Assembly: GCA_947166355.1 (NCBI GenBank)
Contig: CAMVDX010000007.1
Coordinates: 1-64,000 of the forward strand
Direction of reading: 5' to 3'
DNA length: 64,000 bases
From: an uncultured Treponema sp.
GTDB taxonomy: Bacteria > Spirochaetota > Spirochaetia > Treponematales > Treponemataceae
Part shown: positions 67 to 13,370 of the stretch, piece by piece
How positions within the stretch are numbered: the stretch's first letter is position 1
Layout of the letters: each line of letters begins with the position of its first letter
Notes under the pieces: generated by a model
The model's database searches: none
What the model was told of the DNA's origin: nothing
What the model saw: the letters and a program-made list of their open reading frames with translations, nothing else
Translations under genes and position numbers: made by a program

Positions 67-1344
67 TTATTTCGTCGGGAATACGTTTCTCAATCCATAA
101 CTAACTGCATTCTGTTGAAAACAACAAATTTGTCCATCTATTAGTGGTTTCGTTAATGGATTGTTAAGAGCATATGGGCATTTATCAAATATTGGACAGA
201 TTCTATCAAATGTACAACAACTTCCATCTGTATTAAAAACAAATTCATTCATGCATTGTATTTCAATAAAATGAAATAATGCAGTTTGTTCCTCTGTTGT
301 CATTTTGATTTTTGATAATGCACTGTATTGATTTTTATTGTTTATAAGGATTGGAGAAATATTTAACGTCATTAAAGAACATATACAAAATAAAGTTTTC
401 GTGGACTTTAGTGTTAGAGGTAAAGATAGAAAATATGGTATATTCAATCTATAGTTCTTATAAAAATCTATAGTTTTTACAATCCAGTCTGCTGCAAATT
501 GGATTTTATCATAATTAAATGAATTCTTAATATTCTTTTTAGCCTCTTCGAAAGTATTGTTCCAATAATTAATAAGTGTATCACCTTCTATTTGCATATT
601 TGTATAGCAGTAATTATATAGTTCAGGTATTGTCTTTGGCATATATGAATTACTTTTCATTTGTACTAAAATTTTAATAAATAATTCTGGAGGATTAGTA
701 TACATTAAAGATATATCACAAAGTGCAAATATAAAGTCCTGCCGACTTAAAAACACAGGATATATAATACGAACCATTATTTCGGGTAACGAATAAGGGA
801 TCTGATAGATATTAGAAGATGTGTTAGAAAGATGCTCTTCATAAATTCGACACATACCTTCTTCTATTGCAGTTACATCAAAATAATAAGTCTCCGTTTT
901 CTGTTTAGGTCTCTGTATATCAATTTTATATTCTTCCAATTTTAAGTTTAAAATGAGATCCACAGTTACAATCTTTTTTCGATATGATAATTGTAATAGA
1001 GGATCATTCTTATTAAATGTCATGCTATAAGTTGAAGATTTTACTATTTTTTCACTTACGGAAAACAGTTCTTTATTGTTTACATAATTGTGGTCTGTTA
1101 TTGTAAAAGGGAAAGTTTTATTGTATGCATTGTAAAAATGGGCAATACCTGAATACGTATGAGCAATATTTATAACTCCATAAGTAGTTGATATATTTTG
1201 AATAAAATGAATGTATTCATGTATTAACGTTGGAATGATTTCTTTTGAGCGCAAATATTTTTCTGGTTTCTTATCCGTTTCAAGTTTTATCCAAAAGTAA
1301 TTGTCATAATATTTTCCATTAATTGGAGGTAACTGGTGTTTCAT
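67..1344 (-). CDS. Unrecognised HEXXH (zincin-like) protein, third gene of DUF262-HEPN cassette
   Basis: I do not recognise this 425-aa protein as a named family. Near the N-terminus (about residues 42-46) it has HEYIH, which fits the HEXXH zinc-binding motif. A glutamate pair in AIEEG (about residues 160-163) could provide the third zinc ligand of a gluzincin-type metallopeptidase. The C-terminal 60 residues are Cys-rich, with two CC pairs and several single Cys, and may bind a second metal. No signal peptide is evident, so a cytoplasmic location is likely. It starts 5 bp after the stop of the HEPN-like gene, so the two are probably translated from one mRNA. The gene is visibly AT-richer than the chromosomal genes. 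Peptidase activity is inferred from motifs only; a structural zinc role is possible. Confidence 0.6.
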   Translation of the reverse strand: MKHQLPPINGKYYDNYFWIKLETDKKPEKYLRSKEIIPTLIHEYIHFIQNISTTYGVINIAHTYSGIAHFYNAYNKTFPFTITDHNYVNNKELFSVSEKIVKSSTYSMTFNKNDPLLQLSYRKKIVTVDLILNLKLEEYKIDIQRPKQKTETYYFDVTAIEEGMCRIYEEHLSNTSSNIYQIPYSLPEIMVRIIYPVFLSRQDFIFALCDISLMYTNPPELFIKILVQMKSNSYMPKTIPELYNYCYTNMQIEGDTLINYWNNTFEEAKKNIKNSFNYDKIQFAADWIVKTIDFYKNYRLNIPYFLSLPLTLKSTKTLFCICSLMTLNISPILINNKNQYSALSKIKMTTEEQTALFHFIEIQCMNEFVFNTDGSCCTFDRICPIFDKCPYALNNPLTKPLIDGQICCFQQNAVSYGLRNVFPTK

Positions 1345-1349
1345 TTTTT

Positions 1350-2009
1350 TTATTCTGTTACTTGTGCTGGTTTTAAATATTTTTTATTTAATGCATAGTC
1401 AATTAAAGTTTCCTTAAAATCATCTAGCATTTCTATTACAGTTAGTGATATATCAGAAAAATCATCATATGTAATATCCATTGGTCTTTCACCATGAGCA
1501 ATTTCATTTCTACGTTTTAATATTTTCTCGTTAATAAAAGAATACTTCATAGAAAATAAGGGCTCTTTAATTCCAATTATTTGTAGAATCTCTTTGAATA
1601 ATTCTGGAGTTAAATTTGAATGTGTATCAATAAAATTATCTGGAGAAAAATTAGGGGTTTGAGAATACTCTTGCAAATAAGTTTCAGAAAATGAAGTATA
1701 TAGATATTGTTTTTCAGATTTGGCATTAGGTAATAATTCCTTGCATAATTTTATTCCAAAGAAATTATCTGTTAATTCATTATATTTTTTTCTTTGAGAA
1801 AAAACATGAGCCAAATATTTATTACTACTATTCTTTATATAGCCTTCCCAATGAGCATAAGAAAGTGCAATACCACTTCTAATTAATGATTCTTGTGCAA
1901 TGGGTTTACAACCATTTGCTCTTGTTTTGAAATATTCTATTTCTCTTTTTCTCCAGGCTAAGTCTTCATTGAGACTATCTATAAATTTTTCAATTGTAAT
2001 GATTTTCAT
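1350..2009 (-). CDS. MAE_28990/MAE_18760-type HEPN-like nuclease
   Basis: This 219-aa protein resembles the MAE_28990/MAE_18760 HEPN-like group. The N-terminal half carries the family-like YAHWEGYIK segment (about residues 51-59). The C-terminal half has RNEIAH (residues 167-172), which matches the R-x4-H catalytic motif of HEPN ribonucleases. HEPN proteins are metal-independent RNases found in toxin-antitoxin, abortive-infection and CRISPR accessory systems. The ATG directly abuts the stop codon of the DUF262 gene with no spacer, so translation is probably coupled. Another gene follows 5 bp downstream. It is most likely the effector or toxin of the cassette. Family placement is by motif recognition; the RNA target is unknown. 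Confidence 0.75.
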   Translation of the reverse strand: MKIITIEKFIDSLNEDLAWRKREIEYFKTRANGCKPIAQESLIRSGIALSYAHWEGYIKNSSNKYLAHVFSQRKKYNELTDNFFGIKLCKELLPNAKSEKQYLYTSFSETYLQEYSQTPNFSPDNFIDTHSNLTPELFKEILQIIGIKEPLFSMKYSFINEKILKRRNEIAHGERPMDITYDDFSDISLTVIEMLDDFKETLIDYALNKKYLKPAQVTE

Positions 2010-3098
2010 TTAAAACAATTCTTTTCCTAAAGGAATTAAATTCTTAACTCTATCAGCAGCTCTTAATCCGGCTCCAGAACTTTCAATAAAAATAGGATTA
2101 CTCCACATTGCCTTTAATTCTTCTTTTAGTGTTGATACTTGTATTTCTGCATATTTACTAGATACTGCTGGAATAATACATTCATAAGCAGATATAGAGA
2201 ACGGTCCCATGAATTTCTGTAATTCATTATTATATTTTCTAAATACATCGTCTCCGAGAGCTTCATTAAGTAGCTTAAATGTTCCTGTGAAAATGTTCTT
2301 TTCGGCTTCCTTATTAAATGTAGTATCTTTTGCGAATTGAATCATTTTTTCTGTAATAAAGGAGCCCAATTCTTGTCTTCGAGATATTTCTTCTGGTTTA
2401 CAATATCTATAAATAAAGAAACGTAATACTAACTCTTTATCATAACTTTCACTTTTACTTTTTTCAGTTATAGAAATTGTATTTAAGAAATTATAATCTT
2501 TGCTTAATTCATCAATGAAATAATAAAATTCTTTGTTTATCATTAATAACAAGCAATTACGTATTTCTTGATCACTTAAAGAAGAGCCATTTGTGTTAAG
2601 TCTTTGAAATAATTCATATTTAGCTTCAGAATCACTTTCTCGAGTAATTATTTTTATATCTATTTTTGCGCGTTTAATTATTAACCGTTGGGTCATTGTA
2701 AAGGATTCTTCTTCTTTTTCTGATTCCCATACTTTATTTTCTAAAGATGGTAAATATTCAGTTTTTTGAAGTCTAAGAGGTGCATATAGTTCATTATTAT
2801 CATCTTTTAAGATTCCCATAAACTGAAAAATTGTTGATAAACGTTGTAATCCATCAATTACATCCCAAACCCCATCATCTCTTTGAGCGACAAAAATAGA
2901 AGGTATTGGGATTCCAAGTAGAATAGATTCAATTAATTTTGTTTTTTGTTCATCATTCCATCTATATAAACGCTGAAAATCTGGATGAATATCAATTTCT
3001 CCATCTTTGTACATTGAAGCTAATTCACCAATTGACATTGGATAACCATCTGATTTGATTGTTTTAGATTTTAAATCGATTTCATCCTGTAAAGCCAT
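2010..3098 (-). CDS. DUF262 (GmrSD-N/ParB-nuclease-like) protein
   Basis: This 362-aa protein has the hallmarks of DUF262: DGLQRLST (about residues 82-89), a variant of the DGQQR motif of ParB-like NTP-dependent enzymes, and RLNTNGSSLSDQEIRN (about 166-181), typical of the family. DUF262 forms the GmrS-like half of type IV restriction enzymes and occurs in several phage-defence operons, where it is thought to sense or hydrolyse nucleotides. The C-terminal DUF1524/HNH nuclease half of full GmrSD is absent. A strong GGAGG Shine-Dalgarno (3106-3110) supports the ATG at 3098. It is the first gene of the DUF262-HEPN-HEXXH cassette, 33 bp downstream of the AlbA_2 gene. Confidence 0.85.
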   Translation of the reverse strand: MALQDEIDLKSKTIKSDGYPMSIGELASMYKDGEIDIHPDFQRLYRWNDEQKTKLIESILLGIPIPSIFVAQRDDGVWDVIDGLQRLSTIFQFMGILKDDNNELYAPLRLQKTEYLPSLENKVWESEKEEESFTMTQRLIIKRAKIDIKIITRESDSEAKYELFQRLNTNGSSLSDQEIRNCLLLMINKEFYYFIDELSKDYNFLNTISITEKSKSESYDKELVLRFFIYRYCKPEEISRRQELGSFITEKMIQFAKDTTFNKEAEKNIFTGTFKLLNEALGDDVFRKYNNELQKFMGPFSISAYECIIPAVSSKYAEIQVSTLKEELKAMWSNPIFIESSGAGLRAADRVKNLIPLGKELF

Positions 3099-3131
3099 TT
3101 TTAATCCTCCATATTTAAATCAAATATTTAT

Positions 3132-4556
3132 TTAGTTATGTGTAGATACTATTTTCCAATAACCGCTTCTGTCACTTCCAACACGTTCTATCAGATTTGA
3201 ATCTTTTAGAAGTTTAAGATGATTTTTTATTGTCCTTTCTGATAAGCCTGTTTCATTTGATAATTCTGAAATAGAACTCTTTGGATTCTTACAAATTGCT
3301 TCATAGGTTTTCTGGGCAACTTCTGGGCAACTTCTGGGCAACTTCTGGGCAACTTCTGGGCAATTACTAGGAACTTTCTGTGCACTTTCAGCGAATCCGT
3401 CAATGCCATATTCTGCTGCAAGTTTTTTATAAGTTTCAGAAGCATTACAAATAGCAGAAAAACCGCCACTTACAACTTTTGGTTCGGGTAGAGTTGCATT
3501 TTGTTCTTCACAAATTGTTTTAATCTTGAAATATCCGCGACCCCAGGATTCAATAAATCCACACTTAAAGAAAATATCAGCAATCTTAGGATTTCTTGGA
3601 GCAGAATGATGTAATTTGTAAAGGTCTTCAATCTTTACTGTTTCTGGCATTTCACCAATATTCCAAATATCAATCTTGTCCTTATAAATCAAAATCTGAA
3701 TAGGATATGGCTTTGTGTAATCCTTATGAATAAGTGCATTCAGTAATAATTCTCGAAATGCTCCACGTGGGAAGAAGTAAGTCTCTGCTCTATGAATCTC
3801 ATCTGGATACGAAATAAGGGCTTTCATATATTTTGTGTAGATAATATCAAGGGCATCTTCAACCTGTGTCATAAGTGAGCCGTGAATTTCATCCTGGAAA
3901 AGAATGTCTGCATCGTTTGCAAAATAACCGATTTTGGTATATGCACCTATTACCCATTTCTCTGGATCCGGATGAAAAGCCATAACTGCAGCACGTGTAA
4001 GCCGTTCTTTATCAAATGCTCTAAGATTCTGCAAAAGAGCTTCATTTGATATTTCGAGTTCTTCTTCCTTAAAGCGGTTAGTTCTTATAGCCCATGTCTT
4101 AAATACTTTAAATGCTCGTTCATCTAAGTCTTTTACAGAAACATCGGGTATTGAAACAGCATCCCATGAAAGACCATACGCATTAAGAATCAAATCATTC
4201 AATTCAAATCCTGTAACTTCCTGTGTGGTCGAACCAACTCTTTTGTAGTATTTTCCATGATAACTTACTGGATTTTCATACTTATTAACTTTGATAATCA
4301 GATATTTCAAATTATTGTCAGAATCATCAGCAACAGATACATCACATAAAAGGCCCATGCTCTGTGTAATCTTAAGAGGAATTGTTTCACTTAATTTATG
4401 AAAATCTTGAACACCTGTTACAGTACCTTTGTCGTTTACACCAATATAAAGGATTCCGCCTTTAGTATTAGCGAAAGCACAAATCCATTTAAGGTATTCA
4501 TCTTGCCAGCTTTGTTTAAATTCTATGTCCTGATTTTCAGCTTTCTGTATTATCAT
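3132..4556 (-). CDS. AlbA_2 / HATPase_c_4 / winged-HTH protein (Schlafen-like regulator)
   Basis: This 474-aa protein begins with an AlbA_2 (Schlafen AlbA-like) domain, with IEFKQS near residue 11 and FANTKGGILYIGVND around 28-42. A central HATPase_c_4-like region follows (LLNALIHKDYTKPYPIQI, then GFIESWGRGYFKI). The C-terminus is a winged helix (SISELSNETGLSERTIKNH). Such proteins are usually annotated as ATP-binding transcriptional regulators and are frequent in mobile elements. The linker before the HTH is encoded by five tandem 11-bp units (3310-3364). Because 11 is not a multiple of 3, gain or loss of one unit would shift frame and remove the HTH. No SD is seen; TATAAT lies 11 nt before ATG. 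It probably regulates the element or the downstream cassette. Confidence 0.8.
   Translation of the reverse strand: MIIQKAENQDIEFKQSWQDEYLKWICAFANTKGGILYIGVNDKGTVTGVQDFHKLSETIPLKITQSMGLLCDVSVADDSDNNLKYLIIKVNKYENPVSYHGKYYKRVGSTTQEVTGFELNDLILNAYGLSWDAVSIPDVSVKDLDERAFKVFKTWAIRTNRFKEEELEISNEALLQNLRAFDKERLTRAAVMAFHPDPEKWVIGAYTKIGYFANDADILFQDEIHGSLMTQVEDALDIIYTKYMKALISYPDEIHRAETYFFPRGAFRELLLNALIHKDYTKPYPIQILIYKDKIDIWNIGEMPETVKIEDLYKLHHSAPRNPKIADIFFKCGFIESWGRGYFKIKTICEEQNATLPEPKVVSGGFSAICNASETYKKLAAEYGIDGFAESAQKVPSNCPEVAQKLPRSCPEVAQKTYEAICKNPKSSISELSNETGLSERTIKNHLKLLKDSNLIERVGSDRSGYWKIVSTHN
3310..3364 (-). repeat. Five tandem 11-bp repeats inside a coding sequence
   Basis: Coding-strand unit is GTTGCCCAGAA, repeated five times with the last unit marginally incomplete. 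The repeats encode the linker before the winged HTH of the AlbA_2 protein. The reading frame cycles through all three phases of the unit, and an alternative frame stays open from the repeat to about 3227. Slipped-strand mispairing here would act as an on/off switch for the HTH domain. Confidence 0.9.
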
Positions 4557-4612: not shown

Positions 4613-5011
4613 TCACACCGTAATTCTCATAATTATTTTGTTTCCCTTAGAGTTTGTTATTTTACAGTCAATCCACATATCATTCTTCTGAATAATTAAT
4701 ACTATGGCTTCGGAATATCGTGAGAATATAATTGGTCTTAGTTCTGTGTTTTGTTGCAGTTTTAATTCAATGCTAACCGTATAAATCGTATTTTCTACAA
4801 TCCTGTCTTTCTCAGAATATTCAGATTCTTCTATACTAAATATAAATGAAGGTGTCTTAATACAGTTCTCTTCGAGAGATTTGTTTTCAAATGGCTTAAG
4901 AATAATTCCGTCATTATGCTCCTTGTTGATTTTATCAATACATTCAGGAAGCTTCTGAATTAAGAGATATTCCAGTTCTTTATAAACAGGTTCAAAACAT
5001 TTCATAAACAT
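4613..5011 (-). CDS. Probable phage tail-completion / head-tail adaptor protein
   Basis: This is a 132-aa protein with no motif I can name firmly. Its size, its mixed alpha/beta character (initial helix, then strands) and its place directly after the head-tail connector fit a neck or tail-terminator (gp10-like) protein. Its start overlaps the end of the connector gene by 10 bp, so translation is coupled. A second ATG lies two codons further in. It is the last recognisable virion-type gene before the accessory genes; no tail-tube, tape-measure or fibre gene follows. Confidence 0.45.
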   Translation of the reverse strand: MFMKCFEPVYKELEYLLIQKLPECIDKINKEHNDGIILKPFENKSLEENCIKTPSFIFSIEESEYSEKDRIVENTIYTVSIELKLQQNTELRPIIFSRYSEAIVLIIQKNDMWIDCKITNSKGNKIIMRITV

Positions 5012-5496
5012 TTTCTTCTATATAAATTGATTACAGACAGAATATCCTGTGGTAATTCAAATCCAGTTTCCTCATCATGATTTGTCTGTTTTATAAAGTC
5101 TTTCTTTTTTAGAAGGAAGAGTTTTACTATAACTTCTTTTAAGTCTGCCGGTAATGTTTCTTCTGTAAAACCTGCATTATAATTCAAAAAGACAACATGA
5201 CCTTCAAGTTTTGGATCTATGAATAAAATACGTTGTTCGTCAATTACGCAATTAGGAACACGTAGCTTTTTTGTCATATCAATTATGTTTATCATTTCAG
5301 AAATGTTTTCATGGTCTGTAAAAACCATACAGTCTTTTACTGTGTGTAATTCGTTGTAGTTCTTATCATCAAGAGTGTAGCCTAAAAGCTTTTCAATATA
5401 AGAAATTGTTGCTGCAAAGATTAATGAATCTGTTTCTATTTCTTCAGCCTTAAGCTCTAATATTTTCTGTAGTTCTTCAAATGTGAAAGGTTTCAT
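5002..5496 (-). CDS. Phage head-tail connector (gp6-like)
   Basis: This 164-aa protein resembles gp6-like phage head-tail connector proteins, which form the dodecameric ring below the portal. The C-terminal half has the family-like pattern VVFLNYNAGF, then LPADLKEVIVKLFLLKKKDF (about residues 105-138). It lies downstream of the capsid gene in the usual order and overlaps the next gene by 10 bp. A GGAG sequence 4 nt before ATG is the likely ribosome-binding site. A 131-bp inverted-repeat element separates it from the capsid gene. Confidence 0.7.
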   Translation of the reverse strand: MKPFTFEELQKILELKAEEIETDSLIFAATISYIEKLLGYTLDDKNYNELHTVKDCMVFTDHENISEMINIIDMTKKLRVPNCVIDEQRILFIDPKLEGHVVFLNYNAGFTEETLPADLKEVIVKLFLLKKKDFIKQTNHDEETGFELPQDILSVINLYRRKCL

Positions 5497-5510
5497 ATTT
5501 CTCCGTCATC

Positions 5511-5641
5511 GGAAAAGCGGGGCAAAGGCTAGTATAACCTACGTTCAGTCAAATACAAGGCCAAGCCGCTTCGCGGTGTCGCTGCGCTCCAGCCTTGCAT
5601 TTGCCTTCACTTCGGTTTTTGAATTTTCGCCCCCGCTTTCC
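5511..5641. repeat. 131-bp MITE-like element between capsid and connector genes
   Basis: The segment begins GGAAAAGCGGGGC (5511-5523) and ends with its near-perfect inverse GCCCCCGCTTTCC (5629-5641). The inside is GC-rich with further short inverted repeats. It is non-coding, interrupts an otherwise tight virion gene string, and no other copy was seen in this window. A separate AT-rich palindrome follows at about 5642-5665. Confidence 0.6.
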
Positions 5642-5674
5642 AAAGGGCAATATATATTGCTCTTTGGCTGTTTG

Positions 5675-6982
5675 TTATTCAGTTGCTGTTTTTAAGAGCA
5701 CCATATTTTTCTTTGGTCTTGTCACGAGGAATCCGTCACGCTTACGGAATCGCATGAAGAGCTCTCCGTATTCGAGTCCCTCTGTTGTTTCATCAAATCG
5801 TTTGATTTCAATTCCTTTGCGGTTGCCGTGAATGATTCTTTTTGGATTCATAAAGATGGCAATCACGCTGTCAGCTTCAATGTCTGCAAGCTGCGGCATC
5901 AGACGACTTTCAACAACATCATATCCATCGATTCTTCCTGGCATTCCGTCACCTGGTTTTCTCCAGATCGGGTTGTGGTTGTCGTCCTGAATGTTTGCAA
6001 TGTGATTGAGGAATGTTTCATGAAGGAACCATTTGCAATACTTCCTTTCTTCTGGTTCAACCTGCAGCTCTGCCTTGCGGAAGTCGAGGTATGTGAGCTT
6101 TGATTCGTCTGTGCTCTGGATGCGGCATACTTCGGCATGAGACATATTCATTGCGCCTGTGAACGGGTCATCGTCAGCAATAAGACACTGACGGTCAAAC
6201 TCTTGACCATAAGCTTCTGTGAAATCTTCAAGGAACATCTTACCGAGGTCAACAAAAACATCTTCGCCAAACTCGTCAAAGAATGGAACATAGCCTGCAA
6301 GTGTGTAAGCTTTGAGCTCTGTGCGTGTAGGCATGTTTGATTTTGTAGCGTCGATTTTCTGGCCGTATGAAGTCAGCCATTTCAATTCGATTCCGCCACG
6401 GTCTCTTTCTGGAATAAAGATTGAAGGACCACTCATAGGGCGGTGAGTTACGAGGTTCATCATCTGAGACTGCTTTGCAGCTTCCTGCATGATGGTCTCT
6501 TCGTAAATCGGATTGATAAGATACTGGTCATTGTTGGCAAGATTTCCGATTGGTTCACCGAGTACCGCTTTAGATGGTACAAATCCTTTTCCGGTTTCCC
6601 AGGAGAAGTCTTTTGGATTGTTCCATTTTTCAGCTCTGATATTTGGACAGAACTTAAGCTGGCCCAATGTTTCTGCATCCTTGTTCCAGGCTGCGCACAA
6701 AGCTTTACCAAGATTAAAACAAACGTCTCTGTAAGAGAGTGGTTTCATTTCAGTATCAGCTTTACGCATAAGGTTACGAAGCTCTTTTACAGCTTCCTTA
6801 ATTCCTTCAAGTTCACTTGTTGTTGCAGTTGTCTGACTGTCGGCAGCCTTCAAAATACCAGCAATGATTTCTTCATTCTCATTGAAATACTTCGAAATCT
6901 GTTCCGGTGTTGCAGCTTCTGTAGGAACAAGAGTTTTCATATTCTCTAATTTCTGCTGCAGTGATACAATTACTTCGTTCAA
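5675..6982 (-). CDS. HK97-family major capsid protein
   Basis: The product is about 435 aa and is the building block of an icosahedral head. It has the usual layout of HK97-type capsid proteins cleaved by a prohead protease: a helical N-terminal scaffold-like region (first ~90 residues), then a large mixed domain ending in a basic, aromatic C-terminal segment (ELFMRFRKRDGFLVTRP). I place the start at TTG 6982, because AAGGAGG sits 5 nt upstream. The frame stays open to a GTG at 7060, but that has no good ribosome-binding site and a stable hairpin (7008-7048) lies between them. It follows the protease gene in canonical order. Confidence 0.85.
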   Translation of the reverse strand: MNEVIVSLQQKLENMKTLVPTEAATPEQISKYFNENEEIIAGILKAADSQTTATTSELEGIKEAVKELRNLMRKADTEMKPLSYRDVCFNLGKALCAAWNKDAETLGQLKFCPNIRAEKWNNPKDFSWETGKGFVPSKAVLGEPIGNLANNDQYLINPIYEETIMQEAAKQSQMMNLVTHRPMSGPSIFIPERDRGGIELKWLTSYGQKIDATKSNMPTRTELKAYTLAGYVPFFDEFGEDVFVDLGKMFLEDFTEAYGQEFDRQCLIADDDPFTGAMNMSHAEVCRIQSTDESKLTYLDFRKAELQVEPEERKYCKWFLHETFLNHIANIQDDNHNPIWRKPGDGMPGRIDGYDVVESRLMPQLADIEADSVIAIFMNPKRIIHGNRKGIEIKRFDETTEGLEYGELFMRFRKRDGFLVTRPKKNMVLLKTATE

Positions 6983-7007
6983 GTTTTCCTCCTTAGGTAA
7001 CTTGGAT

Positions 7008-7048
7008 AACAGAGCTGTCAGCAGGTTCCAATTGTCAGCAGCTCTGTT
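7008..7048. promoter_or_regulatory. Hairpin in the leader of the capsid gene
   Basis: AACAGAGCTG (7008-7017) pairs perfectly with CAGCTCTGTT (7039-7048). A T-run follows on the plus strand, so it resembles a plus-strand terminator. It lies between the protease stop and the SD-supported TTG start of the capsid gene on the minus strand. There it could act as an mRNA processing or stability element that raises capsid expression. Confidence 0.5.
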
Positions 7049-7062
7049 TTTTATTTGCACTT

Positions 7063-7692
7063 CTAAGCCCGTGCCAGGCCTTTAGTCAACTTATCCCAAT
7101 ACGAAAGCTCCTCAAGGTCCTGAATTACTTCCGTAATCTCCAGTTTTTTCTCTCCGTTTCGGGCAAATGGATTTGCCGGAACACAGCAGATAGAGAATTC
7201 CAAAAGCTCCTGCTTTCGGAAAATCAGATCGCATTCGCGGTCCTTTGATTCCAGAAACTCAACTTCCTCTGCAATAAATCCAACAGAGCCACAGCGTAAA
7301 GCGCCGGCCTTAACTCTCTCCCCAATACTCCATCCGAACTCGTCAAACTCTTTTGAGTTGAATACAATATCTCCCTCGAGCACTGTATCAGCCTTCACAT
7401 TCTCCGCATATCCTATCGCTGGAATAGAGTAATCATGACTCCAGAGGATTACAGGATTCGCAAGATAGTTCTTTAAGTTCCATCCGCTTGGGTCGACTTT
7501 TTCAAAATCACGGTCTACATCAAAAGTACTCATTACCCAATGAAATGAATCTTTCTGTACATCAATGCTTTTGAAAACTTCAACCTGAGGCGAAAGTTTT
7601 CCAGAATGTGTATTGTCCTTTAAGAAAGTCAAAAACAGATTCTTGTTTCTGGAAAATTCCTTGTTTTCCACTCCGTCAATTTTTACTAACAA
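7063..7692 (-). CDS. HK97-type prohead protease
   Basis: This 209-aa protein matches the phage prohead serine proteases (peptidase U35/S78) that cleave the capsid scaffold domain during maturation. FDVDRDFEKVDPSGW opens the fold; VILWSHDYS supplies the probable catalytic His; LLEFSICCVPANPFA supplies the probable catalytic Ser. Start is TTG at 7692, supported by AAGGAG 6 nt upstream, and it overlaps the preceding response-regulator-like gene by 7 bp. It lies directly upstream of the capsid gene. Confidence 0.85.
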   Translation of the reverse strand: MLVKIDGVENKEFSRNKNLFLTFLKDNTHSGKLSPQVEVFKSIDVQKDSFHWVMSTFDVDRDFEKVDPSGWNLKNYLANPVILWSHDYSIPAIGYAENVKADTVLEGDIVFNSKEFDEFGWSIGERVKAGALRCGSVGFIAEEVEFLESKDRECDLIFRKQELLEFSICCVPANPFARNGEKKLEITEVIQDLEELSYWDKLTKGLARA

Positions 7693-8336
7693 CTCCAGCT
7701 CCTTAAGTTTATTTTTTCCAGCTGTTTATTCAGAACACTAAAATCTTTCATGCTCTCAAAACCGATTTTCTTTTTAAGCCTGCTGATATGAATGCCAACA
7801 GCACCTTCGGATGCACTAACCAGCCCACTGATTTGTTTAATGGATTTTCCTTCCCCAAGATACATACCAATCTCAAGCTCCATTTCGGTAATCTCAGAAC
7901 AATACTTACGGAAACGCAAATGTTCGTTTGAATCCAGGCTGTCTAAAACTTCTTCCGGAAAAATCTTCTCACCGGAAAAGATATTACGCAGTTTATTCAC
8001 AAATTCTTTTTTGTTACGAATATTACAAATAAAGCCATCAGCTTTAAGGTCGTAAACTCGAAGACCAAAGAATCTTGAACAGTCTCCCTGCTCAACAAAA
8101 ATAATCCGAAGCTTGCTGTTATAAACACGCAAAGCTGTCATTTTGAATCGAAGAACATAACTCAGAAAATACTTATCAAAAATGACAATATCATCTTCAG
8201 CACTCTTCAAATGATAAATGATGTCAGTATCATTTGAACCATCTACAATCTGCAGTGAAGGCATTGCTGCCTTCGCACAATGAGTAATAATTTCTTTTGT
8301 AAAATCATCACATACTGCAATTATGATTTTTTTCAT
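7686..8336 (-). CDS. LuxR-type response-regulator-like protein inside the virion gene cluster
   Basis: This 216-aa protein has a receiver-like N-terminal half and a LuxR-type HTH at the C-terminus (ITEMELEIGMYLGEGKSIKQ onward, then SRLKKKIGF). Receiver features include the early acidic pair CDD (residues 9-10) and Asp in IVIFDK (mid-50s) at the phosphoacceptor position. The conserved Lys after GAxG/GF appears replaced (ADGFICN), so phosphotransfer may be altered. No histidine kinase is nearby. It is locked between the portal and protease genes, overlapping the latter by 7 bp, with an AAAGAGGT ribosome-binding site. It may time head-gene expression or respond to host state. A regulator at this position is unusual for phages. 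Confidence 0.75.
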   Translation of the reverse strand: MKKIIIAVCDDFTKEIITHCAKAAMPSLQIVDGSNDTDIIYHLKSAEDDIVIFDKYFLSYVLRFKMTALRVYNSKLRIIFVEQGDCSRFFGLRVYDLKADGFICNIRNKKEFVNKLRNIFSGEKIFPEEVLDSLDSNEHLRFRKYCSEITEMELEIGMYLGEGKSIKQISGLVSASEGAVGIHISRLKKKIGFESMKDFSVLNKQLEKINLRSWSC

Positions 8337-8353
8337 TTTTGTACCTCTTTTTG

Positions 8354-9541
8354 TTATTGAGATTGTTCAACAGGAACCAATGAAGAAGCTCTGAACCAGG
8401 TATCACCCCATGGTTTTGTATTCTCGCCACGTTTACGCAGAACATCATTAATGGTTTTCAAGCCAGCATTGATTTCTGCAATATCCCTGTTACTCTGGGC
8501 ATCTTCTGATTCCTGTAACTCAGGTATAGAATCAAGATTAAATACACCATTTTCAGGCAGATTAAATCTTCTGAACAACTGCACCTCAAGAACCTCTTCA
8601 AAATTCTTAAGGAGGGGAATTAATGTATAGTTCCAAAAGGCTCTGTGCTGACTGTCTGTATCAGTACCACTTAAAGAACTCTTGGAGTCCTGTATATTCG
8701 CCACTCGTGGAGGTATTCCATATTTCGCGAGCAGTGTATACAAGTTCCACTTTTTCATATCATAAAGTTTCAGAACATCAGGACTAAAAGTAAGCGGCTG
8801 ATACTCTGTACCTTTACCCAACACAGCAACACGGTTTTTCATACCGCGACCATACTTTTTATCCCAGGTCCTTGCCAATAGTTCTGCTTCAGCTTCTGTT
8901 AATACCTGGTCCGTCTTAAGTAAACCTTTCGGAACTCCTCCTTCTTTTAGCAAGCCTGTGTTTTGCTTTGCCGCAAGTAAATCCTGTTCAACCTCAAGCC
9001 CCAAACTTACCAGCGGACTTACACCCCTGTAGACATTCCATGGGTTCCAGTCCTTAAAATGAATTACCTCATCAGGAAGAATTATCAGCGGCCGTCCGCT
9101 GCCTTCTTCCGTGTAAACCCATTTGGTAATTTTTCCGCCGTCAACGACATGCTGCATATAACGCGGATTAAGAATGTAAATCTCAGTTGGAATCCCACAG
9201 ACATAGTTTTCTCCGAACCACCAGAATGCTTCACCGTCCAGACTCCACCAGGCACAAGTCTGTTTCCATAAATCAAAGCGGCTCAGATTTTTATTTGGAA
9301 ATCTAAAAAGATTATCAAGAGCAGTGTCACGTTCTACAGTCCCATTTTTACGTACTTCAAATTCCGCTCTCGCAACGTTACGAGTTAAAATATCGATGCA
9401 TACAGAAACCCAGGCATGCTGAAGATAAGGATCTGTGCAGGCCTTTTTCTCATGCATAGAAAAATCCTCAGCAACTGTCTCTCCGTTGAGTTGTTCAAAA
9501 CTTTGTAATTGTTTCTGCTGCTTTCTTCTGAATAAACTCAA
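8354..9541 (-). CDS. Phage portal protein (HK97-type)
   Basis: This 395-aa protein is of typical portal length and has recognisable family segments: DPYLQHAWVSVCIDILTRNV near residue 37, a central NPWNVYRGVSPLVSLGLEVE region, and KYGIPPRVANIQDSKSSLSG around 275. Portals form the dodecameric DNA-entry ring and bind the terminase. Start is TTG 9541; a purine-rich stretch precedes it. It follows the terminase large subunit by 30 bp in canonical order. Confidence 0.88.
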   Translation of the reverse strand: MSLFRRKQQKQLQSFEQLNGETVAEDFSMHEKKACTDPYLQHAWVSVCIDILTRNVARAEFEVRKNGTVERDTALDNLFRFPNKNLSRFDLWKQTCAWWSLDGEAFWWFGENYVCGIPTEIYILNPRYMQHVVDGGKITKWVYTEEGSGRPLIILPDEVIHFKDWNPWNVYRGVSPLVSLGLEVEQDLLAAKQNTGLLKEGGVPKGLLKTDQVLTEAEAELLARTWDKKYGRGMKNRVAVLGKGTEYQPLTFSPDVLKLYDMKKWNLYTLLAKYGIPPRVANIQDSKSSLSGTDTDSQHRAFWNYTLIPLLKNFEEVLEVQLFRRFNLPENGVFNLDSIPELQESEDAQSNRDIAEINAGLKTINDVLRKRGENTKPWGDTWFRASSLVPVEQSQ

Positions 9542-9571
9542 TTTTCTCTTACCTTTATTATCGGTATAGCC

Positions 9572-10783
9572 TTATACCATCACAACGCCGCTCGTTACTG
9601 CGCTGAATATCGCATACCTCATAGCGTCCATATAATGGTCATTTACTTTTACAATCTGATTATTCTCATCACGCGAATAATCCCAAATCTCACCAAGAAC
9701 GCCGGTACAGTCTTTGCATACAAAAAACTTTCCACGTTCAATCAATGCAATAATGTAATCAATTCCTGCATCCACAGAGTTATTAGCCTTAACACCTCCA
9801 GGTACTTCCTGAATTCTCTCGCCACCTGCCGGGTCACAGTAGGTAACAAAGCTCTCATCATACCAGCCGCGAGCTTGCTGGTTTTCAACACTGGTCTTCG
9901 TTGTTATGTTGAATCCGCCATAGTCTCCAATGACGTAAACACAGTCACCAACCCAGCCAATCTTTACAGCCGCAATATGCAGGCCAAAATCCTGACCGCC
10001 AGTGTATTTGTCAAACTCAGAAGGAAGCTTATTGCGGGGAAGAATCATAGACTCTTCAAACTTCTCGTAAACAGAACCTTCTGGCTTTACCCAAAGACCA
10101 TCACGGAATCTCGCCCGCTGTTTTTCAGGCATGTTATCCAGAATGTCGCTGATGTAATCTTCGTCAAGGTTTTCAGCGTTATCCATCGGGTTCAAAACAG
10201 CAGAAGCATAAAGCTCCGGCTTGTTTAACTTTTCATCCGTCCGAGGTTCAATCTTTCGAATGAAAACCTTATACGCCCAATGCATGGGCGAACACGGGTT
10301 GCAGTCATAAAAGAACTTGTTCTTACAACCTTCCACCTTCATCGCAAGACGAGAGTAGGCTGTTGTAATTGCAGAGTAAGAAATCTGACTCACTTCGTTA
10401 AAGTAAATCGTCACATACTCATGACCAAGGATGCGGTCAACCTGTTCTTTATCACCAAGTCCACCAATCCAAATCTCGCTACCATTCCACAAGGTAATCA
10501 AACCATCGTGTACGTTAGCTTTGTAATTGTTCGCACCAATCGTCTTGTTCAGCCATGGCAAAAGCGTTTCGTGCAGTACAGAGCTTCGTGCATCCTTCGC
10601 ACGAAAGCGGCAGATCAAATGTCTGCTTCCTGGGTAACGACAGGCACGAAATATAATCGCCATTACAAGAACCGTAGTCTTTCCCGAACGAGAACCACCA
10701 AAAAGCAGAACGTGTTTCGCAGAAGAACTAAGCAGTTCTAAAGCTTTTTTCTGTACGGCCGTAGGCTTGAACAATTCACGCAA
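9572..10783 (-). CDS. Terminase large subunit
   Basis: This is the 403-aa DNA-packaging motor. Walker A is GGSRSGKT (residues 29-36) and Walker B with the catalytic Glu is VTIYFNE (E130). The C-terminal RNase H-like nuclease acidic residues lie in TGGQDFG, TYCDPAGGE and DHYMDAMRYA. It resembles PBSX-type (Terminase_3) enzymes. Start TTG at 10783 directly follows the TAA stop of the small subunit, with AAGGA just upstream inside that gene. Confidence 0.92.
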   Translation of the reverse strand: MRELFKPTAVQKKALELLSSSAKHVLLFGGSRSGKTTVLVMAIIFRACRYPGSRHLICRFRAKDARSSVLHETLLPWLNKTIGANNYKANVHDGLITLWNGSEIWIGGLGDKEQVDRILGHEYVTIYFNEVSQISYSAITTAYSRLAMKVEGCKNKFFYDCNPCSPMHWAYKVFIRKIEPRTDEKLNKPELYASAVLNPMDNAENLDEDYISDILDNMPEKQRARFRDGLWVKPEGSVYEKFEESMILPRNKLPSEFDKYTGGQDFGLHIAAVKIGWVGDCVYVIGDYGGFNITTKTSVENQQARGWYDESFVTYCDPAGGERIQEVPGGVKANNSVDAGIDYIIALIERGKFFVCKDCTGVLGEIWDYSRDENNQIVKVNDHYMDAMRYAIFSAVTSGVVMV

Positions 10784-11311
10784 TTACAAATCCTTAAATG
10801 AATCTGCAAATGTTATTGCAAGCTCACCTTGTACCGGCTTGTTGTTTTCTTTATCTGCACCCGTAATAAACGAGTCCAGCTTTGCAGATCGTTCAAGCAA
10901 ATCCATTGCACCGTCCGCATTCAAATCATCAGGCTTTAGCGTTTTAATACGCTTAGCCACAAGCTCGTCAAAGCCGTTCAACATTTCCATCTGCCTCTTA
11001 CGGCGTTCAACTCGCTCAGCTAAAATCTCCCTTTCAGTTTCTTTTGCAATATACGCATCGTATTCAGCTGCACGTTCATTCCAACGGAAGAGCCGTGCAT
11101 AACGAGCCCAAGAGCCGTACTTATTCGGCTCAATTCCGTTCAGTTCAAGGCAGGCTTTAATGCTGCGCTTGTAGCCCATAGAACGGAAAAGGCAGAAGGC
11201 CTTGAAAGCCTTGGGAGATTCGCCTTCCAATTTTTTCTCCCAAGACTTCAAAGCTTCTTCTGTCTGAACAAGTTCACTGCTGCTGGTACAAACAGTGTCC
11301 TTTTCTCCCAC
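10784..11311 (-). CDS. Probable terminase small subunit
   Basis: This 175-aa basic/acidic helical protein sits immediately upstream of the large subunit with no spacer. SIKACLELNGIEPNKYGSWA and LFRWNERAAEYDAYIA match the HTH-plus-helix pattern of small terminase subunits that recognise pac/cos DNA; a charged helix (ETEREILAERVERRKRQMEM) follows. Start GTG 11311 is supported by AAGGAGG. Function rests on position and general pattern. Confidence 0.75.
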   Translation of the reverse strand: MGEKDTVCTSSSELVQTEEALKSWEKKLEGESPKAFKAFCLFRSMGYKRSIKACLELNGIEPNKYGSWARYARLFRWNERAAEYDAYIAKETEREILAERVERRKRQMEMLNGFDELVAKRIKTLKPDDLNADGAMDLLERSAKLDSFITGADKENNKPVQGELAITFADSFKDL

Positions 11312-11333
11312 GCCTAAAACCTCCTTTGCCCGA

Positions 11334-11564
11334 TTATTTATTTACAACGTAGTTTGCGTGTTCTGGTTCACGAACAGTGCAAACCATACTTCCAAGCCAG
11401 TTATATAAATCCGTCTTACGAAAAATAATGTGTCTGCCATAACTCACATGCGGAATCCTTTTTTCTCTTGCCAGCCGGTAAACAAAAGTTGTACTGAACT
11501 TCAAGTAAGCCGCAGCTTCTTCAACCGAAAGCAAATCCATGTTTTCTTTTTCAGTCTCGTCCAT
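11334..11564 (-). CDS. Excisionase-like HTH protein (MerR/AlpA-type)
   Basis: This is a 76-aa DNA-binding protein: LLSVEEAAAYLKFSTTFVYR, then AREKRIPHVSYGRHIIFRKT and LYNWL, the classic excisionase/AlpA winged-HTH pattern. I start at ATG 11564 because AGGGAG lies just upstream; the open frame extends further but overlaps the integrase terminator hairpin. It lies between the integrase and the terminase genes. It probably controls excision directionality or activates the packaging genes. Confidence 0.75.
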   Translation of the reverse strand: MDETEKENMDLLSVEEAAAYLKFSTTFVYRLAREKRIPHVSYGRHIIFRKTDLYNWLGSMVCTVREPEHANYVVNK

Positions 11565-11603
11565 AAAAATCTCCCTGTTTTTTTTACGCAGAGCAAAAGA
11601 GCA

Positions 11604-11636
11604 TAAAAAAAGCCACAACAGTTTTCTGTTATGGCT
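11604..11636 (-). terminator. Rho-independent terminator after the integrase gene
   Basis: On the minus strand, AGCCATAACA pairs with the matching arm (one mismatch) across a short loop and is followed by a T-run. It lies downstream of the integrase gene and upstream of the excisionase-like gene, separating the two transcription units. Confidence 0.75.
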
Positions 11637-11662
11637 TAATGATAAATCCAAAGTGTTAAGCA

Positions 11663-11710
11663 AAAAGGTTTAGGATTTTTAACCCAGAGGTTAATATTTC
11701 TAAACCTTTT
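11663..11710. repeat. 48-bp near-perfect palindrome between integrase and xis-like genes
   Basis: Arms of 22 bp beginning AAAAGGTTTAG pair at 19 of 22 positions around a short loop. It lies directly after the integrase stop. A- and T-runs on both sides mean it could be a bidirectional terminator; it could also be an operator or accessory recombination site. Confidence 0.7.
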
Positions 11711-11716
11711 CGCACA

Positions 11717-13075
11717 TCAGGCAGAAATAATACATTCTTTCCAGGCATCCTGCATAATACTTCGCATGTTATTCAATAGCGTCATAGTTTCATGATCCGC
11801 ATAATGCAAACTCATAGAAGCACTCTTATGACCAAGAATAGCCTGAACATTTTTAATATCAGTTCTCTGAGCAAGAAGAGTAGCGCAGAAGTGACGCAGG
11901 CTGTGGAATACAATGTTTCTCTCTTTGCGCTGTTCTTCACTGATTCCAATTTCACTAAGGGCCTCATAAAAACTGTCCTGGTAATAAGCAGGTCTGCAAG
12001 GAATCTCCGGTTTTACGTTACTGAAAAATACATAACTCAAATCAGAGTAATTAGGATTCAGTCTTGCTCTGTTCATAAGCTGCAAAAGAAGCTCACGAGT
12101 AACAGGAACATCACGCTCTTCGGTATTCTTCGTAGACTTCAAGCCGTCTTTTTCATTCCAGCTATGGCGGATGTGTAAAACTTCAGCCTGCATATCAAGG
12201 TCACAAACTCTAAGCCCGCTAATCTCTCCGGCACGCAATCCACAGTAAGCCGCGAGTTCAAATGCAAGCTTTCCAAGATGGTTTCTCCAGTCCAGATTCA
12301 ACAGAGAACGAACTTCACTTTCAGTCGGAATGTCACGCTTTTCATTACTGATACCATAACGCTCAGCACCAGCCATAGGATTAAACGAAATCTTACGCTT
12401 ATCAAAAAGATATCCAATAGCCTTACTTCCACAAGTAATGGCATGGTTTACAGTAGAGCCCGAAAGTCCCTTAACGGTGTAGAGGTAAAAGAAAAAGTCA
12501 TCAAGTTCATCCTGTTCCAAATCCTCAACAAGCTTGTCAGGTCCAAAGTACGGAAGCCAGTGATTCTTAGCAAGGCCCTTCATAGCATCAGTATGCATAC
12601 GCGAAAGTTTTTTACCCTTGGCAAAAGAACGCTGCAGAGCTTCAGACTTATCGTAATCCCAGAAGTTAATTAAGAACTCAGCAAGTTTAATGTCAGATTT
12701 TTTCGGAGCTGGTTTTTCAACAGAAACAGGAGCAACAGTTTGAATAGGCGTGGAGAGAGGAACAGAAGCAACAACAGATGCAGAACCGAGCTTATCAGAA
12801 AGCATTAAAGCCAGAGCACGCACATCAGATTCAGTAAGACCGTCAATAATGCCTTTTAAGTTTTTCGAAGCAGAAGAATCAGGAGAGAGAAATTTGCGGG
12901 AATTACTACGAGCTTCCGGCCTGCCGTTTTTTACCCAGTCCGCCGCAATAACAGTTGCTTCTACCTTGTCCTTACAGTGGGTACTTTTAGTTGCACCTTT
13001 AAGCCCTGAAACAGGATCAATAAAAACAACATTGTAATAACCAGATTTGTTTTTGAAGAGATAGAATTGACGCAT
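11717..13075 (-). CDS. int: Tyrosine recombinase / integrase
   Basis: This 452-aa phage-type integrase has the full catalytic set: Arg281 (CGLRAGE), His391 and Arg394 (HSLRH), His416 (LGHKS) and nucleophile Tyr425 (HYAD). An N-terminal arm-binding-like region and a SAM-like core-binding domain (about residues 130-235) precede it. The 70-residue Ser/Pro/Val-rich stretch around 60-125 is long for the family. It lies 222 bp from the 3' end of tRNA-Asn and points away from it, the classic arrangement for integration into a tRNA gene. It should catalyse insertion and excision of the element. Confidence 0.95.
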   Translation of the reverse strand: MRQFYLFKNKSGYYNVVFIDPVSGLKGATKSTHCKDKVEATVIAADWVKNGRPEARSNSRKFLSPDSSASKNLKGIIDGLTESDVRALALMLSDKLGSASVVASVPLSTPIQTVAPVSVEKPAPKKSDIKLAEFLINFWDYDKSEALQRSFAKGKKLSRMHTDAMKGLAKNHWLPYFGPDKLVEDLEQDELDDFFFYLYTVKGLSGSTVNHAITCGSKAIGYLFDKRKISFNPMAGAERYGISNEKRDIPTESEVRSLLNLDWRNHLGKLAFELAAYCGLRAGEISGLRVCDLDMQAEVLHIRHSWNEKDGLKSTKNTEERDVPVTRELLLQLMNRARLNPNYSDLSYVFFSNVKPEIPCRPAYYQDSFYEALSEIGISEEQRKERNIVFHSLRHFCATLLAQRTDIKNVQAILGHKSASMSLHYADHETMTLLNNMRSIMQDAWKECIISA

Positions 13076-13294: not shown

Positions 13295-13297
13295 AAG

Positions 13298-13370
13298 CGG
13301 CTGCTGCAGGTTTTGAACCTGCGACACATGGATTAACAGTCCATTGCTCTACCAGCTGAGCTAAGCAACC
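13298..13370 (-). tRNA. tRNA-Asn (anticodon GTT)
   Basis: A 73-nt cloverleaf fits completely: acceptor stem GGTTGCT/AGCAGCC with one G-U pair, D-arm GCTC/GAGC, anticodon stem ATGGA/TCCAT around loop CTGTTAA, T-arm GCAGG/CCTGC with TTCAAAA loop, and discriminator G. CCA is not encoded. A terminator follows immediately. The 3' end faces the integrase, so this gene is the likely attachment target. No copy of the tRNA 3' segment was seen elsewhere in the window, so the other attachment site probably lies beyond position 1. Confidence 0.97.

Follow-up and report, generated by a model that had tools for sequence, protein, structure and literature searches.

Genes and spacing at the locus

Three adjacent minus-strand genes lie at the edge of the 64,000-nucleotide stretch of uncultured Treponema sp. 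DNA analysed here (GCA_947166355.1, contig CAMVDX010000007.1; hereafter the window). In order of transcription they encode a DUF262 protein, a predicted HEPN ribonuclease and a HEXXH gluzincin-like protein (Table 1). The contig ends at window base 1, 66 bp past the HEXXH gene, and the opposite flank of the trio is its only known side. The genes are separated by 0 bp (DUF262-HEPN) and 5 bp (HEPN-HEXXH), and the G+C content of the trio is 0.276, versus 0.41 for the window. A previous reading of this DNA, made without database searches (the sequence-only reading), had described this tight spacing, the single strong Shine-Dalgarno at the head, the AT-rich composition and the intact DGLQR, R-x4-H, HEYIH and AIEEG motifs; all of these are confirmed, and the family alignments show no variation at the named residues. 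The ATG of the HEXXH gene lies 5 bp past the HEPN stop codon and lacks a Shine-Dalgarno of its own, which suggests that its translation is probably coupled to that of the HEPN-DUF262 pair.

Table 1. Features of the trio and of the prophage that carries it (window positions)
Feature	Position	Strand	Remarks
DUF262 / GmrSD_N (ParB/Srx-like NTPase) gene	2010..3098	minus	362 aa, first in operon
DGLQR motif of DUF262	2841-2855	minus	
MAE_28990 / RiboL-PSP HEPN predicted ribonuclease gene	1350..2009	minus	219 aa
RNEIAH motif of HEPN	1494-1511	minus	catalytic
HEXXH gluzincin-like protein gene	67..1344	minus	425 aa, undescribed family
HEYIH motif of HEXXH gene	1207-1221	minus	
Glu162 codon of HEXXH gene	859-861	minus	
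Cys codons of HEXXH gene	214-216, 196-198, 178-180, 124-126	minus	
Shine-Dalgarno region (ATGGAGG) of DUF262	3099..3115	minus	trio's only strong one
Schlafen AlbA_2 - winged-helix gene	3132..4556	minus	474 aa, first cargo gene
Prophage head module	4613..13075	minus	
Connectors	4613-5011, 5002-5496	minus	named by position alone, no PHROG match
Capsid	5675-7060	minus	
Protease	7063-7692	minus	
LuxR-like	7686-8336	minus	
Portal	8354-9541	minus	
TerL	9572-10783	minus	
TerS	10784-11311	minus	
Xis (excisionase)	11334-11663	minus	
Integrase	11717-13075	minus	
tRNA-Asn(gtt)	13297..13370	minus	putative integration target of prophage

The host prophage and its cargo slot

Relatives of the prophage capsid were found in 44 of 274 genomes of the family, and 20 sibling elements (L130-L149) were read. 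Most of these have the same head module adjoining a tRNA gene (Gly, Phe, Lys, Arg or Met), followed by variable cargo, and a common tail-like module is present past the cargo wherever the sequence extends that far. Cytosine and adenine methyltransferases abound in the sibling cargo, as do type I specificity subunits, HsdR, DruA and restriction enzymes (NgoBV, DpnII, LlaJI, AlwI, AspBHI, MvaI). One genome (G051) holds two copies of the element, one of which is complete, spanning 36,267 bp between 42-bp att repeats of tRNA-Phe. Inspection by eye of this complete sibling (L134+L153+L154, G051:C1) revealed NlpC/P60-like, fibre-like and 479-aa primase-like genes, and no obvious tape-measure protein. 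The idea that the host element is a capsid-forming satellite devoid of tail genes was dropped, as tail-like genes follow the cargo in the siblings, among which is a complete, 36.3 kb element with att repeats.

The DNA of the nearest sibling (L130, genome G146) is 93% identical to the window up to position 3151, a point within the final codons of the Schlafen gene (90% identity at the protein level), past which two other genes stand in place of the trio. The trio is, therefore, an exchangeable cargo block. None of the other sibling stretches read contains a DUF262, HEPN or HEXXH gene. The trio is cargo in a variable slot between the head and tail genes of a tRNA-Asn prophage, and in the siblings this slot is occupied mainly by restriction-modification (R-M) and defence genes. 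R-M or Thoeris genes are on record for some published Treponema prophages, and the searched passages of that publication contain no description of the slot of the present prophage family (PMC11144348).

Three further observations concern genes of this prophage family. In another sibling prophage, the cargo likewise opens with a Schlafen-AlbA relative (54%; L141:9281-10732). Within the Schlafen-AlbA gene of the window, 5' of the winged-helix domain, short tandem repeats (CTTCTGGGCAA units) at 3310-3365 may permit length variation. Finally, the LuxR/response-regulator-like gene, for which no PHROG match was obtained, is located between the portal and protease genes in nearly all siblings.

The DUF262-HEPN pair

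The DUF262 protein matches Pfam GmrSD_N (3.4e-30), and the HEPN protein matches both PF18735 (1.1e-36) and PF18737 (1.8e-33). Among PADLOC models, DUF262 scores best with NsnA (1.7e-64), followed over residues 23-362 by PD-T4-2_A (2.8e-36), while the HEPN protein matches no PADLOC family at E<=1. Residues D82, G83, Q85 and R86 of DUF262 (DGLQR) are invariant in the family alignment, as are R167, N168 and H172 of HEPN (RNEIAH, R-x4-H) across eight homologues.

DUF262 lies directly upstream of HEPN in 37 of 39 HEPN loci on viral contigs, a set that includes several near-duplicates; of the two exceptions, one has broken frames and the other is at a contig end. None of these 39 loci contains the HEXXH gene. 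Plasmids of Psychrobacter, Corynebacterium, Leptospira, Roseomonas and Enterobacter, as well as two spirochaete genomes, also carry the pair without it, often next to R-M genes, and the HEXXH gene is absent from all of the approximately 50 other pair loci examined (some of them near-duplicates). The gene downstream of the pair is mostly convergent, on the opposite strand, or distant, and a search downstream for a common third partner found none. This arrangement marks DUF262-HEPN as a conserved, self-contained two-gene unit.

This unit is already of a known kind. PD-T4-2 (Vassallo et al. 2022), whose deletion from its native strain raises T4 plaquing (PMC9519451), is tabulated under both DUF262 and HEPN PF18735 (PMC10952713), and both domains are present in the window pair, the first of them matching PD-T4-2_A. 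The window differs in the second subunit, its HEPN protein falling in PF18735 yet lacking a PADLOC match, in the extra HEXXH gene after the pair and in its host, a spirochaete prophage. The MAE_28990 HEPN-ParB operons (Anantharaman et al. 2013), tabulated as operons that also hold a ParB nuclease and genes for a DNA methylase (PMC3710099), are similar in that a PF18737 HEPN protein with R-x4-H stands beside a ParB/Srx-fold DUF262 with DGxQR; in contrast to these, the window adds the HEXXH gene and has no DNA methylase on the known side of the locus, the other side being off the contig. With the type IV restriction enzymes GmrSD and BrxU the pair shares the DUF262 N-terminal domain with DGxQR, whereas their DUF1524 HNH nuclease domain is absent from all window proteins searched.

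The best-scoring PADLOC model, NsnA, is one that we take to be a subunit of Menshen (NsnABC). This assignment is supported by a DUF262-AAA gene pair at one of the loci discussed below (L075) and by a published account of Menshen in which DUF262 is paired with an OLD-like protein (PMC10952713); the name NsnA itself was not found in the defence literature searched. Despite the score, the neighbours of DUF262 in the window are HEPN, HEXXH and Schlafen genes, with no AAA/OLD ATPase among them; on one side the contig end limits the comparison. The sequence-only reading had made DUF262 and the MAE_28990-type HEPN, which it associated with defence and toxin systems, part of a candidate undescribed system; the pair itself is of a known kind, given the matches to NsnA and PD-T4-2_A and the published tabulations (PMC10952713, PMC3710099).

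The known relatives also bear on whether the set could instead be a toxin-antitoxin module, with a HEPN toxin curbed by DUF262 and a HEXXH protein acting as a spare regulator, which would stabilise the prophage and not block phages. HEPN families do include toxins of toxin-antitoxin systems (PMC3710099), and the pair is present on plasmids and phages. However, the usual antitoxins do not resemble DUF262, an NTPase-like protein of 362 aa, and PD-T4-2, tabulated with the same two domains (PMC10952713), protects its native host against T4 (PMC9519451); we consider such a module highly improbable.

The HEXXH family: sequence and predicted fold

A genome scan yielded 73 loci with HEXXH homologues, in Bacteroidota, Lachnospiraceae, Treponema and others. 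Homologues came from genome collections alone, as whole-gene searches of plasmids, phages and viral contigs gave no matches. In an alignment of 66 full-length proteins, H42, E43, H46, G56, E162, C377, C383, C389 and C407 are invariant (66/66). The HEYIH motif of the window protein supplies H42, E43 and H46, and AIEEG holds E162, which mostly follows H46 by 110-121 residues across the 66 proteins and by ~116 in the window protein. This is a pattern of putative gluzincin ligands together with a putative metal knuckle of four Cys, and invariance this strict argues for catalysis.

No Pfam, NCBIfam or PADLOC model was found to match the 66 members consistently, so that it belongs to no named family among these; the sequence-only reading had likewise been unable to place the third partner in a named system. 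A Pfam match of the window protein to 'Enhancer of rudimentary' (0.0038, below the cut-off; PDB matches to the same family) was rejected, the other 65 members being devoid of it. AlphaFold, which the sequence-only reading had recommended for the 425-aa protein, produced a confident full-length model (pLDDT 88.2, pTM 0.90) and an N-domain model (pLDDT 86.6, pTM 0.85). Foldseek and VIA returned noise only for both models against the PDB, and for the full model against BFVD, so no solved structure was matched. In the full model, H42 and H46 lie in helix 37-52 and E162 in helix 157-173; the protein thus resembles the gluzincin metallopeptidases in having an invariant HEXXH and downstream Glu, both in model helices. 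It is most likely a cytosolic metallohydrolase, a gluzincin-type protease with a four-Cys metal-binding tail, the word protease resting on the motif because the fold is unmatched in the PDB. The family is a new one, widespread and strictly conserved, and undescribed in the protein-family databases searched here.

Lit, the HEXXH protease of prophage e14, cleaves a protein on infection. The window protein is likewise a predicted cytosolic, prophage-borne HEXXH protein in an anti-phage setting, but differs in lacking a sequence-family or fold match and in possessing the extra Glu and the four-Cys tail. Elsewhere in the family, one locus contains a tandem pair of homologues (L072:2862-5912), and in genome G114 a frame change divides the homologue, which adjoins an HsdS gene, into parts of 85 + 326 aa (L007:4087-5372).

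Neighbourhoods of the HEXXH genes

The HEPN gene of the pair is found at none of the 73 homologue loci, and DUF262 is near a homologue at only one of them (L075), where a Menshen-like DUF262 follows the HEXXH gene at a distance of 55 bp, with an AAA ATPase next. The co-occurrence of HEXXH homologues with DUF262-HEPN that the sequence-only reading had proposed to look for is, therefore, not seen, an outcome that this reading had itself named as refuting its proposal. A same-strand gene lies within 30 bp in 23 of 74 HEXXH loci, its identity varying by locus, and the other 51 have no same-strand neighbour at <=30 bp. No partner common to more than a few loci was found, and even the nearest relatives (L009 and L002) have neighbours unrelated to each other. 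In a raw list, which is no measure of enrichment, the immediate neighbours include HEPN/Toprim, PIWI pAgo, HNH_5, SIR2, PIN, HamA, YhcG and AbiLi/AriA-like AAA proteins, as well as ordinary ones such as MnmE, RadC and transposases. The HEXXH gene is thus independent of the DUF262-HEPN pair across genomes.

Two loci are worth recording in their own right: in one, the homologue is flanked at 11 bp by a PIWI-domain pAgo and at 27 bp, on its other side, by a gene for a ClpP-like serine protease (L026:5821-10091), and in the other it is followed after 11 bp by a gene of 330 aa that also encodes a HEVGH motif (L052:9221-10213).

CHAT or trypsin-like proteases activate or degrade partners in other immune systems. 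By analogy, the trio could be a true three-gene system, in which the HEXXH protein would be a modular protease, recruited by the pair here and by other effectors elsewhere, that activates or degrades its partner upon infection; the role of activator or brake of the HEPN that the sequence-only reading had suggested would belong to this view. The 5-bp spacing and the missing Shine-Dalgarno would fit such an arrangement, as would the 23 closely spaced loci, several with plausible effectors (pAgo, SIR2, PIN, HamA, and an HNH-like neighbour at L047 and an Mrr-like one at L017, both called by eye), and the L075 homologue upstream of its DUF262-AAA pair. We nevertheless judge this unlikely, as any given partner recurs at a few loci at most, some 50 DUF262-HEPN pairs do without a HEXXH gene and most HEXXH copies are without a tightly spaced neighbour. 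A broader form of the idea, in which the family would be a widespread immune protease of unsolved fold, acting as an infection-triggered activator for many effectors (HEPN, pAgo, SIR2, PIN, HNH) and making the pair a proteolytically controlled three-gene system here, appears quite unlikely.

Alternatively, the HEXXH gene may be non-defence cargo, serving lysogenic conversion, phage regulation or metabolism, that lies beside defence genes by chance. Many homologues adjoin ordinary or mobile-element genes, and PADLOC contains no HEXXH homologue; against this, the gene occupies a slot used mainly for R-M and defence in sibling prophages, and defence-system neighbours recur beside its homologues. 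This explanation seems to us rather improbable.

Two probable defence units in one prophage cargo

Two independent defence units, co-carried on one transcript as anti-phage cargo of the prophage, provide the best explanation of the trio, to which we would assign a probability of about 60%. The units appear to be separate because HEPN loci lack HEXXH (0/39) and HEXXH loci lack HEPN (0/73). Some features count against this, namely the 5-bp distance of the HEXXH gene from HEPN, the absence of its own Shine-Dalgarno and the ordinary genes among the neighbours of its homologues. A defence role for the trio is likely, being well supported by the cargo slot and by the pair. Of the original proposal of an undescribed three-gene defence system, it is this role that is supported; a single three-gene system is not supported, since the pair and the HEXXH gene are separate elsewhere.

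In the first unit, DUF262 would sense an invading phage, probably via foreign or modified DNA as its family suggests, and would thereby unleash the HEPN ribonuclease, which is predicted to cut RNA and so stop the infection. The second unit would be a single-gene defence, the HEXXH metallohydrolase on its own, which may act in the manner of Lit, by cleaving a protein of the host or of the phage during infection.

A ribonuclease defence pair of known kind can thus be told apart from an uncatalogued metalloprotein family, and the novelty lies in this unannotated HEXXH family and in the prophage cargo slot. The family looks catalytically constrained, as eight residues of ligand type do not vary among 66 proteins, and in Bacteroidota, Clostridia and Spirochaetota it recurs near very different immune effectors; if it is indeed a defence protease, a missing class would be added to bacterial immunity. 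The cargo slot, for its part, is a place to seek further systems in spirochaetes, a group with little-studied phages.
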